In this document: positions 31,299 through 37,874 of the stretch, one piece after another
Layout of the letters: each line of letters opens with the position of its first letter
How positions within the stretch are numbered: the first letter of the stretch is position 1
From: Nocardioides sp.
GTDB lineage: Bacteria > Actinomycetota > Actinomycetes > Propionibacteriales > Nocardioidaceae
Reading direction: 5' to 3'
NCBI GenBank assembly: GCA_025965275.1
Contig: JAOPXG010000049.1
Coordinates: 1-43,555, forward strand
Length of the DNA stretch: 43,555 bases
Position numbers and translations under genes: made by a program
The notes under the pieces: generated by a model
The model's input: the letters and a program-made list of their open reading frames with translations, nothing else
The model's database searches: none
Told to the model about the DNA's origin: nothing

Positions 31299-32090
31299 TC
31301 AGCGAAGGGGCTGGCAGGACGGGCACCAGTACGCCACGCGCTCGACGCCCGGCTGGCCGAGCTCGGCGCGCTGGATGGCGGTGCCGCAGCGGCGACAGCG
31401 CTCGCCGGGCCGGCCGTAGATCCAGAGGCTGCGGCCGCGGCGCTTGTCGCCGGTGGTGCAGATCTGCGGGTGGTGGCGGTTCTGGTCGAGCATCGAGCGG
31501 GCCAGCCGCACCATCCGGAGCGGGTCCTCGACGGCGCCGACCGGGCTGCGCGGGTCGTAGCCGGTGAGGAAGCACAGCTCGGTGCGGTAGATGGTGCCGA
31601 TGCCGGCGAGGTTGCGCTGGTCGAGCAGCGCCTCGCCCAGCGGCCGCTCCGGATCGGCGGTGAGCCGTCGGACGGCCTCCTCGGCGTCCCAGTCGGGCCC
31701 CAGCAGGTCGGGGCCGAGGTGACCGACCACGTCGGACTCCCGCTCCCGGGGCACCAGCTCGACGATGCCGAGCGTGAAGCCCACCGCGCTGCGGGCGCCG
31801 ACGTCGAGGACGACCCGGGCCAGGTGTGACGCGGTGGACCAGCGCTCACCCGGTCGGTAGACACGCCAGGAGCCCTCCATCTTGAGGTGGGTGTGCAGCG
31901 TCCAGGGCCGTTCGTGGTCGATCCGGGTGAGCAGGTGCTTGCCGCGCGACACCGTCTCGAGGACGGTGCCGCCCGACAGGTCGACGGTGGCGTGCTGCGG
32001 GACCCGGAAGTCGGTGCGCTCCAGCCGCTGGCCGTCGAGGGCGCGTCGGAGCCGCTCTGCCGTGCGCCAGACGGCGTCGCCCTCAGGCAC
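31299..32090 (-). CDS. nei2: Fpg/Nei-family DNA glycosylase (Nei2-like)
   Basis: VPEGDAVWRTAERLRRALDGQ...DQRNLAGIGTIYRTELCFL...GRPGERCRRCGTAIQRAELGQPGVERVAYWCPSCQ zinc finger. Confidence 0.93.
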   Translation of the reverse strand: MPEGDAVWRTAERLRRALDGQRLERTDFRVPQHATVDLSGGTVLETVSRGKHLLTRIDHERPWTLHTHLKMEGSWRVYRPGERWSTASHLARVVLDVGARSAVGFTLGIVELVPRERESDVVGHLGPDLLGPDWDAEEAVRRLTADPERPLGEALLDQRNLAGIGTIYRTELCFLTGYDPRSPVGAVEDPLRMVRLARSMLDQNRHHPQICTTGDKRRGRSLWIYGRPGERCRRCGTAIQRAELGQPGVERVAYWCPSCQPLR

Positions 32091-35000
32091 CGGACGACCT
32101 CAGCCGCAGTCCCTTCGGGGTCGCCACGAAGCCGGCCGCTTGCAGTGCCTGGCGCAGCGGGGTCGAGCCGGCGCCGAGCAGCTGCTCGCCATCGGCCTTC
32201 TCGACGGTCAGCCGGCCGAGCGAGCCGCGTCGTACGGCGTCGCCGAGCGCCGCCGCGGCCGGGGTGAGCAGGTCGGGCTCGTCGGTCCAGGTCAGCAGCG
32301 TGCGCCCGCCGCGCTCGACGTAGAGAGTGAGCACGCCGTCGACGAGGACGACGATCGCGCCGGCCTTGCGGCCCGGGCGGTGGCCCGTGGTCTCCGGCCA
32401 CGGAAGGGCAGCGCCATAGGGGTTCGCCGGATCCGTCGCCGCCAACGCGACAGCAGTCGGCTTGGCGTCGGTGGGGAGCTCGGCGAAGGTGCGCAGCCGG
32501 TCGACCGAGCCGGCGGTGCCGAACTGCGCCGCGCCGAGCCCGGCCACGAAGTAGCCGCGGCGGCAGCGGCCGGAGTCCTCGAACGCCGAGAGCACCTTGT
32601 AGACCGCGGCGAACCCGCCCGGCACCCGCTCGCTCACCACCGCGCCGCGGATGACGACGCCGTGCCGGTCGAGCAGCCGCTCGGCGGTGGCGTGCGCGCG
32701 CCGGGTGGGGTCGGTGTCGAGGTCGGGCAGCAAGGCCCAGCGGCCGGCGGTCTCGGGCGGACCCGTGCGGCTGGGTCGCCCGGGCCGGCTCGTGGTCGTG
32801 CGCGGCGGTGGGCGCCGGCTGCGGTGGGCAGGGGTGCCACCGCGGATGAGCGCGCGCAGCGGGGTGAGGGTGTCGTTGCTGACCCGGCCGGACCAGACGA
32901 GCTCCCAGAGCGCCGCGGACAGCGCAGCGTCGTCGGTGGAGCGCACCGCGTCGGACAGCTGGCGGAAGAACCACGCTCCGCCGGGGGAGAGCGCGTCGAG
33001 CACGGCCTGGTGGAGCTCGCCGTGTTCGAAGGGCTGGTGGTCGGGAAGCGTCAGCGGCGCCTGGTCGGCGAGGTGCAGCGAGACCCAGCCGTCGGCGCCG
33101 GGCAGCGCGGCGTGGCCGGCCCAGATGACCTCGCCGGAGGCGGTGAGCTCGTCGAGGTAGGACGGCTCGTAGTCGCGCACCCGCGCCCCCAGCACCAGCG
33201 GCTCGAGCGCCGAGGCAGGGACCGCGCAGCCGGCGAGCTGGTCAACGACGCTGAGGACGCCGTCGACGCCGCGCAGCCTGCCGCCGACGTGCTGCCACGC
33301 CGCGAGGAACCGGCCCAGGGTCTCGGGCTCGACCGGCTCGATCTCCTGGCGCAGCCGGGCCAGTGAGCGTCGGCGGAGGCGGCGCAGCACCTCGGCGTCG
33401 CACCACTCCGTGCCGGAGCCGGCCGGCCGGAACTCGCCGTCGAGCACCCGGCCCTGGCCGGCCAGCCGCTGCAGGGTGTGGCGCACGACGGCGGCGCCGA
33501 GGCCGAGCCGGGTGGCCACGTCGTCGGTGGTGAAGGGTCCGTGGGTGCGGGCGTAGCGGGCGACCAGGTCGGCGAGCGGGTCGTCGACCGGGTCGGTGAA
33601 GGCGTCGGGGGTGCCGGGCGGGACGGGCACGCCGAGTCCGTCGCGGAGCCGGCCGACGTCCTCCACGACCGCCCAGCGCTCGACACCGGCCATGCGGACC
33701 TCGACGACCCGGCGGGAGTCGGCGAGCGCCTTCAGCCAGCCGCCGACATCGGACCCGTCGACCGAGCGGGCGACGACCTCGTCCGTGCTCAGCGGTCCGA
33801 TCAGCCGGATGAGGTCGACCAGGCCCTCGGCGTCACGGGCCCGGCGGTCGGGGGCGAGCCGCTGGAGCTCGGCCTCGACCTCGGCCAGCACCTCGGGGTC
33901 GAGCAGCTCGCGCAGCTCGGCCCGGCCGAGCAGCTCGGCGAGCAGGCCCTGGTCGAGCGCGAGCGCGGCGGCCCGGCGCTCGGCGATGGGGGAGTCGCCC
34001 TCGTACATGAACTGGGCGACGTAGCCGAACAGCAGGCTGCGCGCGAACGGCGACGGGGAGTGCGTCGACACGTCGACGACCTGGACCTCGCGGCGCTCGA
34101 CGCCGCGCATCAGGGTCACCAGGCTCGGCAGGTCGTAGACGTCCTGGAGGCACTCGCGCACGGCCTCGAGCACGATCGGGAACGACGGGTAGCGCGACGC
34201 GACCTCGAGCAGCGCCGCCGACCGCTGGCGCTGCTGCCACAGCGGGGAGCGGCGCCCGGGGTCGCGGCGGGGGAGCAGCAGCGCCCGGGCCGCGCACTCG
34301 CGGAAGCGCGAGGCGAAGAGCGCCGACCCGCCGACCTCCTGGGTCACCAGGGCCTCGATCTCGTCGGGCTCGAACACGATGACGTCGCCGCCGGGCGGCT
34401 CGGCGTCGGTGTCGGGGATCCGGATCACGATGCCGTCGTCGGAGGCCACGGCCTGCCCGTCGACGCCGTACCGCTCGCGCAGCCGGGCGTTGATCGCCAG
34501 CGCCCAGGGCGCGTGCACGGGGACGCCGTACGGCGAGTGCACGACCAGCCGCCAGTCGCCCAGCTCGTCGCGGAAGCGCTCGACGACCAGGGTCGTGTCG
34601 GTCGGCAGCAGGTTGGTGGCCTCGAGCTGCTCGTGGAGGTAGGTGACCAGATTGCCGGCCGCCCACGCGTCGAGGCCGTCGGCGCGGGCGCGCTCCTCGG
34701 CCCGCTCGCGCGGCAGTGCGCCGAGCTCGCGGGTGAAGGCGCCGATCGCGGCACCGAGCTCGGCGGGGCGGCCGAGGGTGTCGCCCTTCCAGAACGGGAG
34801 CCGGCCGGGGATGCCGGGCGCGGGTGTCACGAGCACCCGGTCGTGGGTGATGTCCTCGATCCGCCAGCTGGTCGCGCCGAGCGCGAAGATGTCGCCGACC
34901 CGCGACTCGTAGACCATCTCCTCGTCGAGCTCGCCCACCCGCCGGCCGGGCCCCTCGCCACCGACCAGGAAGACCGCGAAGAGACCGCGGTCGGGGATGG

Positions 35001-36600
35001 TGCCGCCACTGGTGACCGCGAGCCGCTGGGCGCCGGGTCGTCCGGTGAGGGTGCCGGTCACCCGGTCCCACACGATGCGTGGGCGGAGCTCGGCGAACTC
35101 GTCGGACGGGTAGCGGCCGCTCAGCAGGTCGAGCGTCGCGTCGTAGGCGCTGCGGGGGAGCTGGGTGAACGGCGCGCTGCGCTTCACCAGCTCGAAGAGC
35201 TCGTCGACCTGCCACGCGTCGAGCGCCGTCATGGCCACGACCTGCTGGGCGAGCACGTCGAGCGGGTTGGTCGGCACCCGGAGCGACTCGATCGCACCGC
35301 TGCGCATCCGCTCCACCGCGACCGCGGTCTGCGCCAGGTCGCCGCGGTGCTTCGGGAAGAGCACGCCGCGCGACACCTCGCCGACCTGGTGGCCGGCGCG
35401 GCCGACCCGCTGGAGGGCGCTGGCCACCGACGGCGGCGACTCGATCTGGATGACCAGGTCGACGGCGCCCATGTCGATGCCGAGCTCGAGGCTGCTGGTG
35501 GCGACCACGCAGGGCAGCCGGCCGCGCTTGAGGTCGTCCTCGATCAGCGCGCGCTGCTCCTTGGACACGGAGCCGTGGTGGGCCTTGGCGATGATGCTGT
35601 CGGCACCGTGGCTCTGCCCGGACTGGGCCATCAGCTGGGCGGGCGGGTCGCCCCCCTCCTCGAGCGCGACGCCTGCCCGATCGCTCGCGATCTCGTTGAG
35701 CCGCGCGGTCAGCCGCTCGGCCAGGCGCCGGGAGTTGGCGAAGACGATCGTCGAGCGGTGCTGCTCGACCAGGTCGACGACGCTCTCCTCGACGTGCGGC
35801 CAGATGCTCTGCGCACGGTTGGGCTCGTCGGAGTCCTCGTCGTACTCGCTCGGGGCCGTCATGTCCTCGACCGGGACGACGACCGCGAGGTCCCACTCCT
35901 TCTCCGAGGGCGGCGCGACGATCTCGACCGGGGCACCGCCGCCGAGGAAGCGCGCGACCTCCTCGAGCGGACGCACCGTCGCCGACAGCCCGATCCGCTG
36001 GGCCGGTCGCTCGAGGAGGGCGTCGAGCCGCTCGAGGCTGACCGCGAGGTGGGCGCCGCGCTTGGTGCCGGCCACGGCGTGCACCTCGTCGATGATCACC
36101 GTCTCGACCCCGCGCAGCGAGTCGCGCGCCTGGCTGGTGAGCATCAGGAAGAGCGACTCGGGCGTGGTGATGAGGATGTCGGGGGGAGCGGTCGTGAGCT
36201 TGCGCCGGTCGGCCGCGGGGGTGTCGCCGGACCGGACGCCGACCGTCACCTCCGGCACCGCTGCGCCGAGCCGGTCGGCGGTGTGGCGGATGCCGGTCAG
36301 CGGCGCGCGCAGGTTGCGCTCGACGTCGACGCCGAGCGCCTTGAGGGGCGAGATGTAGAGGACCCGGCAGCGGTGTCGCTTGTCGTCGGGCGGCGGGGTC
36401 GTCAGCAGCCGGTCGATGGACCAGAGGAAGGCGCTGAGCGTCTTGCCCGATCCGGTCGGCGCGACCACCAGCGCGTGCCGCCCGGCGCCGATCGCCTCCC
36501 ACGCCCCACGCTGGGCAGGCGTCGGCTCGGCGAACGCCGCACCGAACCAGGTGCGGGTCGGCTCGCTGAACCGCTCGAGACCACCGTCGTTGTCTGCCAC
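32083..36600 (-). CDS. lhr: ATP-dependent helicase Lhr
   Basis: HALVVAPTGSGKTLSAFLWSIDRLL, DEVHAVAGTKRGAHLAVSLERLD, LQRVGRAGHQVG; about 1500 aa with Lhr C-terminal domains. GTG start at 36600 (VADNDGGLERFSEPTRTWF) chosen from promoter placement. Confidence 0.95.
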   Translation of the reverse strand: MADNDGGLERFSEPTRTWFGAAFAEPTPAQRGAWEAIGAGRHALVVAPTGSGKTLSAFLWSIDRLLTTPPPDDKRHRCRVLYISPLKALGVDVERNLRAPLTGIRHTADRLGAAVPEVTVGVRSGDTPAADRRKLTTAPPDILITTPESLFLMLTSQARDSLRGVETVIIDEVHAVAGTKRGAHLAVSLERLDALLERPAQRIGLSATVRPLEEVARFLGGGAPVEIVAPPSEKEWDLAVVVPVEDMTAPSEYDEDSDEPNRAQSIWPHVEESVVDLVEQHRSTIVFANSRRLAERLTARLNEIASDRAGVALEEGGDPPAQLMAQSGQSHGADSIIAKAHHGSVSKEQRALIEDDLKRGRLPCVVATSSLELGIDMGAVDLVIQIESPPSVASALQRVGRAGHQVGEVSRGVLFPKHRGDLAQTAVAVERMRSGAIESLRVPTNPLDVLAQQVVAMTALDAWQVDELFELVKRSAPFTQLPRSAYDATLDLLSGRYPSDEFAELRPRIVWDRVTGTLTGRPGAQRLAVTSGGTIPDRGLFAVFLVGGEGPGRRVGELDEEMVYESRVGDIFALGATSWRIEDITHDRVLVTPAPGIPGRLPFWKGDTLGRPAELGAAIGAFTRELGALPRERAEERARADGLDAWAAGNLVTYLHEQLEATNLLPTDTTLVVERFRDELGDWRLVVHSPYGVPVHAPWALAINARLRERYGVDGQAVASDDGIVIRIPDTDAEPPGGDVIVFEPDEIEALVTQEVGGSALFASRFRECAARALLLPRRDPGRRSPLWQQRQRSAALLEVASRYPSFPIVLEAVRECLQDVYDLPSLVTLMRGVERREVQVVDVSTHSPSPFARSLLFGYVAQFMYEGDSPIAERRAAALALDQGLLAELLGRAELRELLDPEVLAEVEAELQRLAPDRRARDAEGLVDLIRLIGPLSTDEVVARSVDGSDVGGWLKALADSRRVVEVRMAGVERWAVVEDVGRLRDGLGVPVPPGTPDAFTDPVDDPLADLVARYARTHGPFTTDDVATRLGLGAAVVRHTLQRLAGQGRVLDGEFRPAGSGTEWCDAEVLRRLRRRSLARLRQEIEPVEPETLGRFLAAWQHVGGRLRGVDGVLSVVDQLAGCAVPASALEPLVLGARVRDYEPSYLDELTASGEVIWAGHAALPGADGWVSLHLADQAPLTLPDHQPFEHGELHQAVLDALSPGGAWFFRQLSDAVRSTDDAALSAALWELVWSGRVSNDTLTPLRALIRGGTPAHRSRRPPPRTTTSRPGRPSRTGPPETAGRWALLPDLDTDPTRRAHATAERLLDRHGVVIRGAVVSERVPGGFAAVYKVLSAFEDSGRCRRGYFVAGLGAAQFGTAGSVDRLRTFAELPTDAKPTAVALAATDPANPYGAALPWPETTGHRPGRKAGAIVVLVDGVLTLYVERGGRTLLTWTDEPDLLTPAAAALGDAVRRGSLGRLTVEKADGEQLLGAGSTPLRQALQAAGFVATPKGLRLRSSGA

Positions 36601-36606
36601 CGGACC

Positions 36607-36629
36607 ATCTTTGCTCACGGCACCGACAA
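36607..36629 (-). promoter_or_regulatory. RecA-NDp/PafBC-type DNA-damage promoter candidate for lhr-nei2
   Basis: Minus strand TTGTCGGTG-CCGTGAGC(8 nt)-AAAGAT; matches TTGTCRGTG-N8-TANNNT except the first base of the -10. Confidence 0.75.
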
Positions 36630-36692
36630 CCCCCTCGGTGCCGGCCTGCGCGCGTGACGGGGCTCCCATCGGTCGGTGCCGGCCGCACGCCG

Positions 36693-37874
36693 ATGACAGC
36701 GACGTCGGCGCTCGCGAGCGCGCAGATGACGTCTGACGACGGCGGGCGGATCGACGAGATCCGGGCGCTCGAGGAGCTGGTCTGTGCCGCGCAGTCGCGG
36801 CAGGCCCGCCGCGAGTCGCCCCATCGCGGCCGTCAGCACGTCGGGCTGTCCCGGGTTCTGGACGCCGAGCTGCCGCACACCGCCGCCGCCTTCGCCGGGG
36901 GTGGGATCACCGAGTGGCGGGCCATGACCATCGCCCGCGAGACCGCCTGCCTGTCCCTGGAGGACCGGCGCACCGTGGACCGGGCGATCGCGGGCGATCC
37001 CGAAGCGCTGGAGGGCTACTCCGACCGGGTCCTGCTCGGCGAGCTGCGCAAGCTGGTCTGCCGCCTCGACCCCGCCTCGGTCGCCGAACGACGCCGCCGC
37101 GCCGAGGCCGAGCGGTGCGTGACGGTACGACCCGCGCCCGACACGATGGCCTACCTGACGGTCCTGCTCCCGGTGGCGCAGGCGGTGGCGGCCTACGCCG
37201 CCCTCAAGACGGTCGCCGACTCCGCGACCGCGGCGGGTGACCCCCGCAGCCGCGGGCAGGTCATGGCCGACACCCTGGTCGCCCGGGTCACCGGCGCACC
37301 GGTCGACGAGCTCGGCCGGCCGGTGGTGTCGGTGGCGATCAACCTCGTGATGAGCGACCAGGCCCTGTTGGCCGGCGCCCACGACAGCGCCCACCTCGAC
37401 GGCCACGGGCCGATCCCGGCCGGGCTGGCCCGTGAGCTGGTCGCCGACACCCTCGACGCCGGCACCCGGACCTGGCTCCGCCGCCTCTACGCCAGCCCCA
37501 CGACCGGCGAGCTGGTCGCGATGGACTCGTCGGCCCGCCTCTTCCGCGGCGGGCTGCGCGCCGTGGTCCAGCTCCGCGACCAGTTCTGCCGCACTCCCTG
37601 GTGCAACGCCCCGATCCGACACGGCGACCACGCCCTGGCCGTCGCCGACGGCGGCAACACCAGCGCCGCCTGCGGCCAAGGCCTCTGCGAAAGCTGCAAC
37701 TACGCCAAGGAAGCCACCGACTGGCGCGCCCGACCCGGACCAGGGCCGGGGCACACCATCGAGACCACCACCCCCACCGGACACACCTACCGCTCCGCCG
37801 CGCCACCACTCCTGCGACCTCGCATCGGCGCCTACCGACAAGTCGCCGACGGACTCTGGACACTCGTCGCCTAG
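36693..37874 (+). CDS. DUF222/13E12-repeat HNH endonuclease signature protein
   Basis: N-terminal DUF222-type helical region, C-terminal RDQFCRTPWCNAPIRHGDHALAVADGGNTSAACGQGLCESCNYAKE HNH-like motif. Confidence 0.88.
   Translation: MTATSALASAQMTSDDGGRIDEIRALEELVCAAQSRQARRESPHRGRQHVGLSRVLDAELPHTAAAFAGGGITEWRAMTIARETACLSLEDRRTVDRAIAGDPEALEGYSDRVLLGELRKLVCRLDPASVAERRRRAEAERCVTVRPAPDTMAYLTVLLPVAQAVAAYAALKTVADSATAAGDPRSRGQVMADTLVARVTGAPVDELGRPVVSVAINLVMSDQALLAGAHDSAHLDGHGPIPAGLARELVADTLDAGTRTWLRRLYASPTTGELVAMDSSARLFRGGLRAVVQLRDQFCRTPWCNAPIRHGDHALAVADGGNTSAACGQGLCESCNYAKEATDWRARPGPGPGHTIETTTPTGHTYRSAAPPLLRPRIGAYRQVADGLWTLVA

Follow-up and report, generated by a model that had tools for sequence, protein, structure and literature searches.

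A predicted PafBC-type promoter with a conserved non-T −12 base upstream of lhr-nei2 in Nocardioides

The lhr-nei2 locus and its upstream element

The 43,555-nt stretch of Nocardioides sp. DNA that was analyzed here, referred to as the window, encodes on its minus strand a full-length large helicase-related protein (lhr, 32083..36600; WH2-WH4 domains, NCBIfam PRK09751 above the cut-off). It is followed in the same direction by nei2 (31299..32090, minus strand), a Nei2-type AP lyase/glycosylase whose match to NCBIfam endonuc_Nei2 (5e-102) reaches 340.6 bits, below the curated cut-off of 400. The Lhr protein comprises 1,500 residues with the Pfam domains DEAD, Helicase_C, DEAD_assoc and WH_Lhr, and its closest named relative is found in Nocardioides sp. 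PD653-B2 (97% identity over 200 residues). The ends of the two genes overlap as in an lhr-nei2 operon: the nei2 GTG (32090) and the lhr TGA (ending at 32083) share 8 nt, which bears out an overlap pointed out in an earlier note on this DNA. The same 8-nt overlap is present in four relatives (G032, G013, G008 and G024), and a nei2-like start lies 3' of lhr in all ten relatives sampled. On the other side of lhr a DUF222 protein is encoded divergently (36654-37874, plus strand), which confines the lhr promoter to a short intergenic stretch.

Re-reading of the minus strand from 36629 to 36607 gave TTGTCGGTG, ccgtgagc and AAAGAT, after which ggtccg leads to an in-frame GTG at 36600, exactly as the earlier note had laid it out. 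The first of these elements (36621..36629, minus strand) is an exact match to TTGTCRGTG, the upstream (−26) box of PafBC-type promoters. The 8-nt spacer CCGTGAGC (36613..36620, minus strand) has a G at −14, and the −10 element AAAGAT (36607..36612, minus strand) has a non-T base at −12, A at −11 and T at −7. The Lhr GTG start codon (36598..36600, minus strand; VADNDGG...) follows 6 nt past the −10 element and is predicted to lie at or beside the transcription start. Compared with the RecA-NDp consensus tTGTCRgtg-8 nt-TannnT (PMC5656591), the box and the spacer agree fully, and TannnT is matched in A-11 and T-7 and missed in T-12.

With zero mismatches to TTGTCRGTG-N8-WANNNT the lhr site is the sole one in the window; up to two mismatches yield five matches (1.4 expected), and in the 4.38 Mb assembly the pattern occurs just twice, lhr being one of the two. 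A chance match of the lhr motif is ruled out by its spacing, its gene context and its footprint in other genomes. LexA control of lhr was likewise rejected: GAACNNNNGTTC-like sites (up to one mismatch) are absent from the window to a distance of 2 kb from lhr, and upstream of lhr they were seen in none of 21 Streptomyces and one of 42 Nocardioides regions. An Rfam search of the window gave no match.

The regulation proposed here is known in kind, since PafBC-dependent induction of lhr-nei2, which reportedly acts in interstrand crosslink repair, has been published for mycobacteria, where it does not depend on LexA/RecA (PMC11323726), and is also supported by a second study (PMC8922275). PafBC is activated by ssDNA and operates by sigma adaptation at the −26 motif (PMC11804915), and other actinobacteria are said to have RecA-NDp promoters as well (PMC8223512). 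M. smegmatis and M. tuberculosis share with the window the same two-gene operon and the same upstream box. They belong to another order, however, and carry C at −12 where the window has A; furthermore, induction was measured in mycobacteria, whereas our comparison uses sequence alone.

Conservation of the element and position of the Lhr start

TGTC and a start codon in frame were the sole anchors of the lhr alignment, leaving the −10 element unconstrained; RGTG served to break ties and was not an anchor in the column scoring. The sites counted in this alignment are distinct ones, which stem from related and thus not independent sequences. Among the 39 Nocardioides sites, A-11 and T-7 are each present in 38, and the same pattern was observed for 14 sites from a mycobacteria-like genus (f7g13, recognised by how closely its Lhr matches an M. 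tuberculosis Lhr query) and for 67 from other actinobacteria. The TGTCRGTG columns hold 1.7-1.9 bits in Nocardioides and Streptomyces, compared to 0.3-0.5 bits for the upstream flank. For Streptomyces the values are 1.9 bits for these columns, 1.8 bits for the −10 columns and 0.5 bits for the flank. The start codon lies 6-7 nt past the −10 element in all 39 Nocardioides sites, in 20 of the 21 from Streptomyces and in 57 of the 67 from other actinobacteria; in the mycobacteria-like genus it lies 6-8 nt downstream. The motif is therefore kept in relatives, its sharp lhr footprint spanning Nocardioides, Streptomyces, Kribbella-like families and the mycobacteria-like genus, for the most part 6-7 nt before an ATG or GTG. 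In Streptomyces/Actinacidiphila it takes the form TTGTCAGTG-N8-CA[CG]GAT, 6-7 nt before ATG in 20/21 distinct loci.

The upstream box is not universal, since the lhr genes of a Nocardioides subclade (L039, L040, L042, L043, L047, L049, L055) have TGTCGGAC/TGTCGTAC or similar and not TGTCGGTG. As recA keeps TGTCRGTG there, PafBC control may have been lost or altered at lhr alone. Variants of the recA box itself occur in the Kribbella-like family f3 (TGTCCGAC/TGTCCGTC; L196-L201) and in some Nocardioides (TGTCGGGA/TGTCGGAC; L214-L219), each with spacing and T-12 unchanged, which suggests that in some clades the PafBC box has been drifting.

The distance between −10 element and start codon points to a leaderless mRNA, because what is invariant matches a −10 element and not a Shine-Dalgarno sequence, and because in 12 of the 46 Nocardioides lhr loci an upstream in-frame start is lacking altogether. 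In M. tuberculosis such mRNAs are common and account for 22% of the genes expressed in exponential phase (PMC3898074). The location of the element would consequently fix the likely Lhr N-terminus, and VADNDGG, which the earlier note had preferred to the longer ORF, is the probable one, the start 6-7 nt past the −10 element being kept across families.

It might be argued that Lhr truly starts further upstream in the window's genome, at an alternative in-frame GTG (36618) or ATG (36669), in which case the motif would not serve VADNDGG as a leaderless promoter. Upstream of 36600 the reading frame is indeed open, the GTG 18 nt upstream, within the spacer, recurs in many relatives, and GAGGGGG is found 11 nt before 36618. 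However, apart from the 12 loci in which no such start exists, the spacer bases vary freely (GTGAGC, GTAGGC, GTTTGT, GTCGGC) and the start that families have in common is the downstream one, which renders this reading very unlikely. The conserved block has also to be considered as the Shine-Dalgarno sequence of a leadered message, with lhr driven from a separate upstream promoter, since AAGGAT or GAGGAT 6 nt before the start resembles a ribosome-binding site in some relatives. But the invariant columns are A-11 and T-7 without a GGAG core, and Shine-Dalgarno-like 4-mers occurred in only 41 of 122 sites in the initial alignment pass. In Streptomyces and in the mycobacteria-like genomes the block reads CACGAT or CACCAT, which is no Shine-Dalgarno sequence, and no sigma-70-like promoter was found in 36400-37000. 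We consider this explanation highly improbable and retain the leaderless promoter.

The −12 base, G-14 and promoter subtypes

That only the first base of the −10 element departs from the consensus stands as an observation, but it cannot be read as a defect of this copy, as a non-T base is the rule at lhr. T-12 was found in 1 of 120 distinct lhr sites (Nocardioides 1/39, mycobacteria-like 0/14, others 0/67), C being the commonest base and present in 14/14 sites of the mycobacteria-like genus. The single T-12 site (TAGGTT, L044; L046 shares the identical 23-nt site) is without G-14. At a local T content of 12-17%, the shortage of T-12 reaches significance only under the assumption of independent sequences, which does not hold here. 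The stronger argument is the contrast of lhr with recA and uvrB in the same genomes: in Nocardioides T-12 is found in 17/17 recA and 24/25 uvrB distinct sites, and in the mycobacteria-like genus in all nine recA sites read (the anchor was located in 9/17 genomes). Leaderlessness is not the cause of the missing T, because uvrB is leaderless by the same geometry and yet carries T-12.

In the window's genome recA and uvrB fit the canonical RecA-NDp form. With the recA P1 type the lhr element has the upstream box, the 8-nt spacing, A-11 and T-7 in common; it differs in G-14, in the missing T-12 and in a start codon at or beside the predicted +1, where recA has a leader. Taken against the published TannnT (PMC5656591), the non-T base could indicate a retained box with a decayed −10 element and an lhr no longer well induced in this lineage. 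This is barely credible, because A-11 and T-7 are fixed, which is unexpected under decay, and because the non-T base is equally the rule in the mycobacteria-like genus, mycobacterial lhr being PafBC-induced. Judged by its conservation, the non-T first base at lhr is not decay and represents a conserved subtype.

In Nocardioides G-14 is present in 38/39 lhr sites, in all 15 non-T uvrA sites and, read by eye, in nearly all sites of an HRQ1-like helicase, compared to 1/25 for uvrB and 1/17 for recA. A strict rule of either T-12 or G-14 but never both, which we had predicted before uvrA was viewed, was broken by four of the six T-12 uvrA sites, which have G-14 as well. These exceptions leave standing only that non-T implies G-14 in Nocardioides, and even here the sites of a RibD_C-domain gene and of rmuC in the window's genome deviate with T at −14. 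Outside Nocardioides the G occupies either −13 or −14, and G-13 is frequent at uvrB as well; in a form broader than Nocardioides the G-14 rule is weak. The G two bases before the −10 element recalls, in a sequence-only comparison, the mycobacterial extended −10 (TGN-TANNNT, PMC3898074), from which lhr differs by A instead of T at −15 and by its non-T −12.

As an extended-type −10, G-14 probably offsets the weak −12 and would combine low basal with high induced expression. It fits this reading, without proving it, that lhr belongs to the most strongly nargenicin-induced genes of M. tuberculosis (PMC8922275). We tentatively suggest, as a real possibility though one we would not yet favor, that two conserved grades of PafBC promoter exist: one with T-12 (recA, uvrB), and one lacking it and carrying a G just before the −10 element. 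The latter, with low basal and high induced expression, would serve particular repair genes and explain why a motif search reported no conserved PafBC motif for Streptomyces, which on this view would nonetheless respond through PafBC. It would include lhr in all actinobacteria sampled and additionally uvrA and the HRQ1-like helicase in Nocardioides. The literature searched yielded no description of the T-less subtype, which is no proof that none exists.

PafBC, genome-wide sites and the predicted control of lhr-nei2

PafB and PafC are encoded elsewhere in the genome as an adjacent tandem pair, both with WYL and WCX; PafB matches PDB 6sj9 (PafBC, 2e-45) and the second gene of the pair carries HTH_PafC (6e-39). 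Two of the genome's four WYL-domain matches lie outside the PafBC pair, and ClgR has been proposed for the recA P1 promoter (PMC5656591), but with the mycobacterial motif bound and activated by PafBC (PMC6789036, PMC11804915) we give hardly any credence to a second WYL-domain activator or ClgR acting on the same box.

Pattern searches of the 4.38 Mb assembly revealed 50 matches to TGTCRGTG-N8-NANNNT, many of them inside genes, versus two for the reversed pattern. When the spacer was allowed to vary (TGTCRGTG-N(3-14)-TAGNNT), all eight occurrences had exactly 8 nt. The scan shows that sites recur upstream of DNA-repair genes. Exactly 6-7 nt 5' of the start they are found at lhr, uvrB, sbcD, a DEDD/GIY-YIG (Cho-like) nuclease, an HRQ1-like DEAH helicase and rmuC, and also at an MFS transporter, a peroxiredoxin and the RibD_C-domain gene. 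These are nine genes with recognisable domains, compared to about 0.05 expected by chance (50 sites × 2 offsets × ~4,200 starts / 8.75 million strand positions, our own arithmetic). Sites with a leader precede recA, uvrA, nrdJ, dnaE and an integrase-like gene. With recA and uvrA added to the repair genes above, the functions behind the motif are largely DNA repair, plus dnaE and nrdJ, and by its gene content the pattern is the signature of a working DNA-damage regulon.

In genome G000 the sites before peroxiredoxin (C303, L363), rmuC (C344, L365) and the class II ribonucleotide reductase nrdJ (C65, L005) are of PafBC type. A canonical site, CTGTCGGTG-N8-TAGCGT, lies ~25 nt before the ORF MRKVETLTNGDGTT... 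(G000:C399, L375), which resembles a tyrosine recombinase/integrase as assigned by eye from its translation; the arrangement suggests damage-induced excision of a mobile element. We class the DECH/HRQ1-like helicase (G000:C36, L223; TIGR03817) with the mitomycin-repair helicase MrfA; in many Nocardioides a leaderless PafBC-type site precedes its gene. In the mycobacteria-like genus no PafBC-type site was found at this helicase, so that it does not always belong to the regulon.

With PafB/PafC encoded in the genome and the motif kept in relatives, the overall interpretation of the earlier note largely holds. The element is, with high probability, a PafBC-dependent promoter of RecA-NDp type for lhr-nei2, with a leaderless message and a −10 element of the conserved non-T −12 subtype. 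The following course, from PafBC binding through start site and induction to the role of −12 and −14, is what we infer for the window lhr. Upon DNA damage, ssDNA-activated PafBC would link the TGTCGGTG box with the polymerase-bound housekeeping sigma factor, a mechanism termed sigma adaptation. The polymerase would open the DNA at AAAGAT, and the mRNA would begin at or within 1-2 bases of the Lhr GTG (36600). In the Nocardioides subtype G-14 probably compensates for the missing T-12 and keeps uninduced expression low. The leaderless lhr-nei2 message would then raise the crosslink-repair helicase and its partner together.

New relative to the known regulation is the non-T −12 at lhr, which appears to be kept across actinobacteria including Streptomyces. 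As the TannnT consensus excludes this conserved subtype, scans based on it would undercount the regulon. For S. venezuelae, according to a 2022 study, a first search pointed to a lack of conservation of the M. smegmatis PafBC motif, and a response through PafBC was still to be demonstrated (PMC9380542); with TTGTCAGTG-N8-CACGAT at Streptomyces lhr there is now a specific promoter at which the question of motif conservation becomes testable. The element would place the crosslink-repair operon lhr-nei2 of Nocardioides under the PafBC control known from mycobacteria; judged by the footprint, such control may also reach Streptomyces, Micromonospora, Kribbella-like and other actinobacteria.
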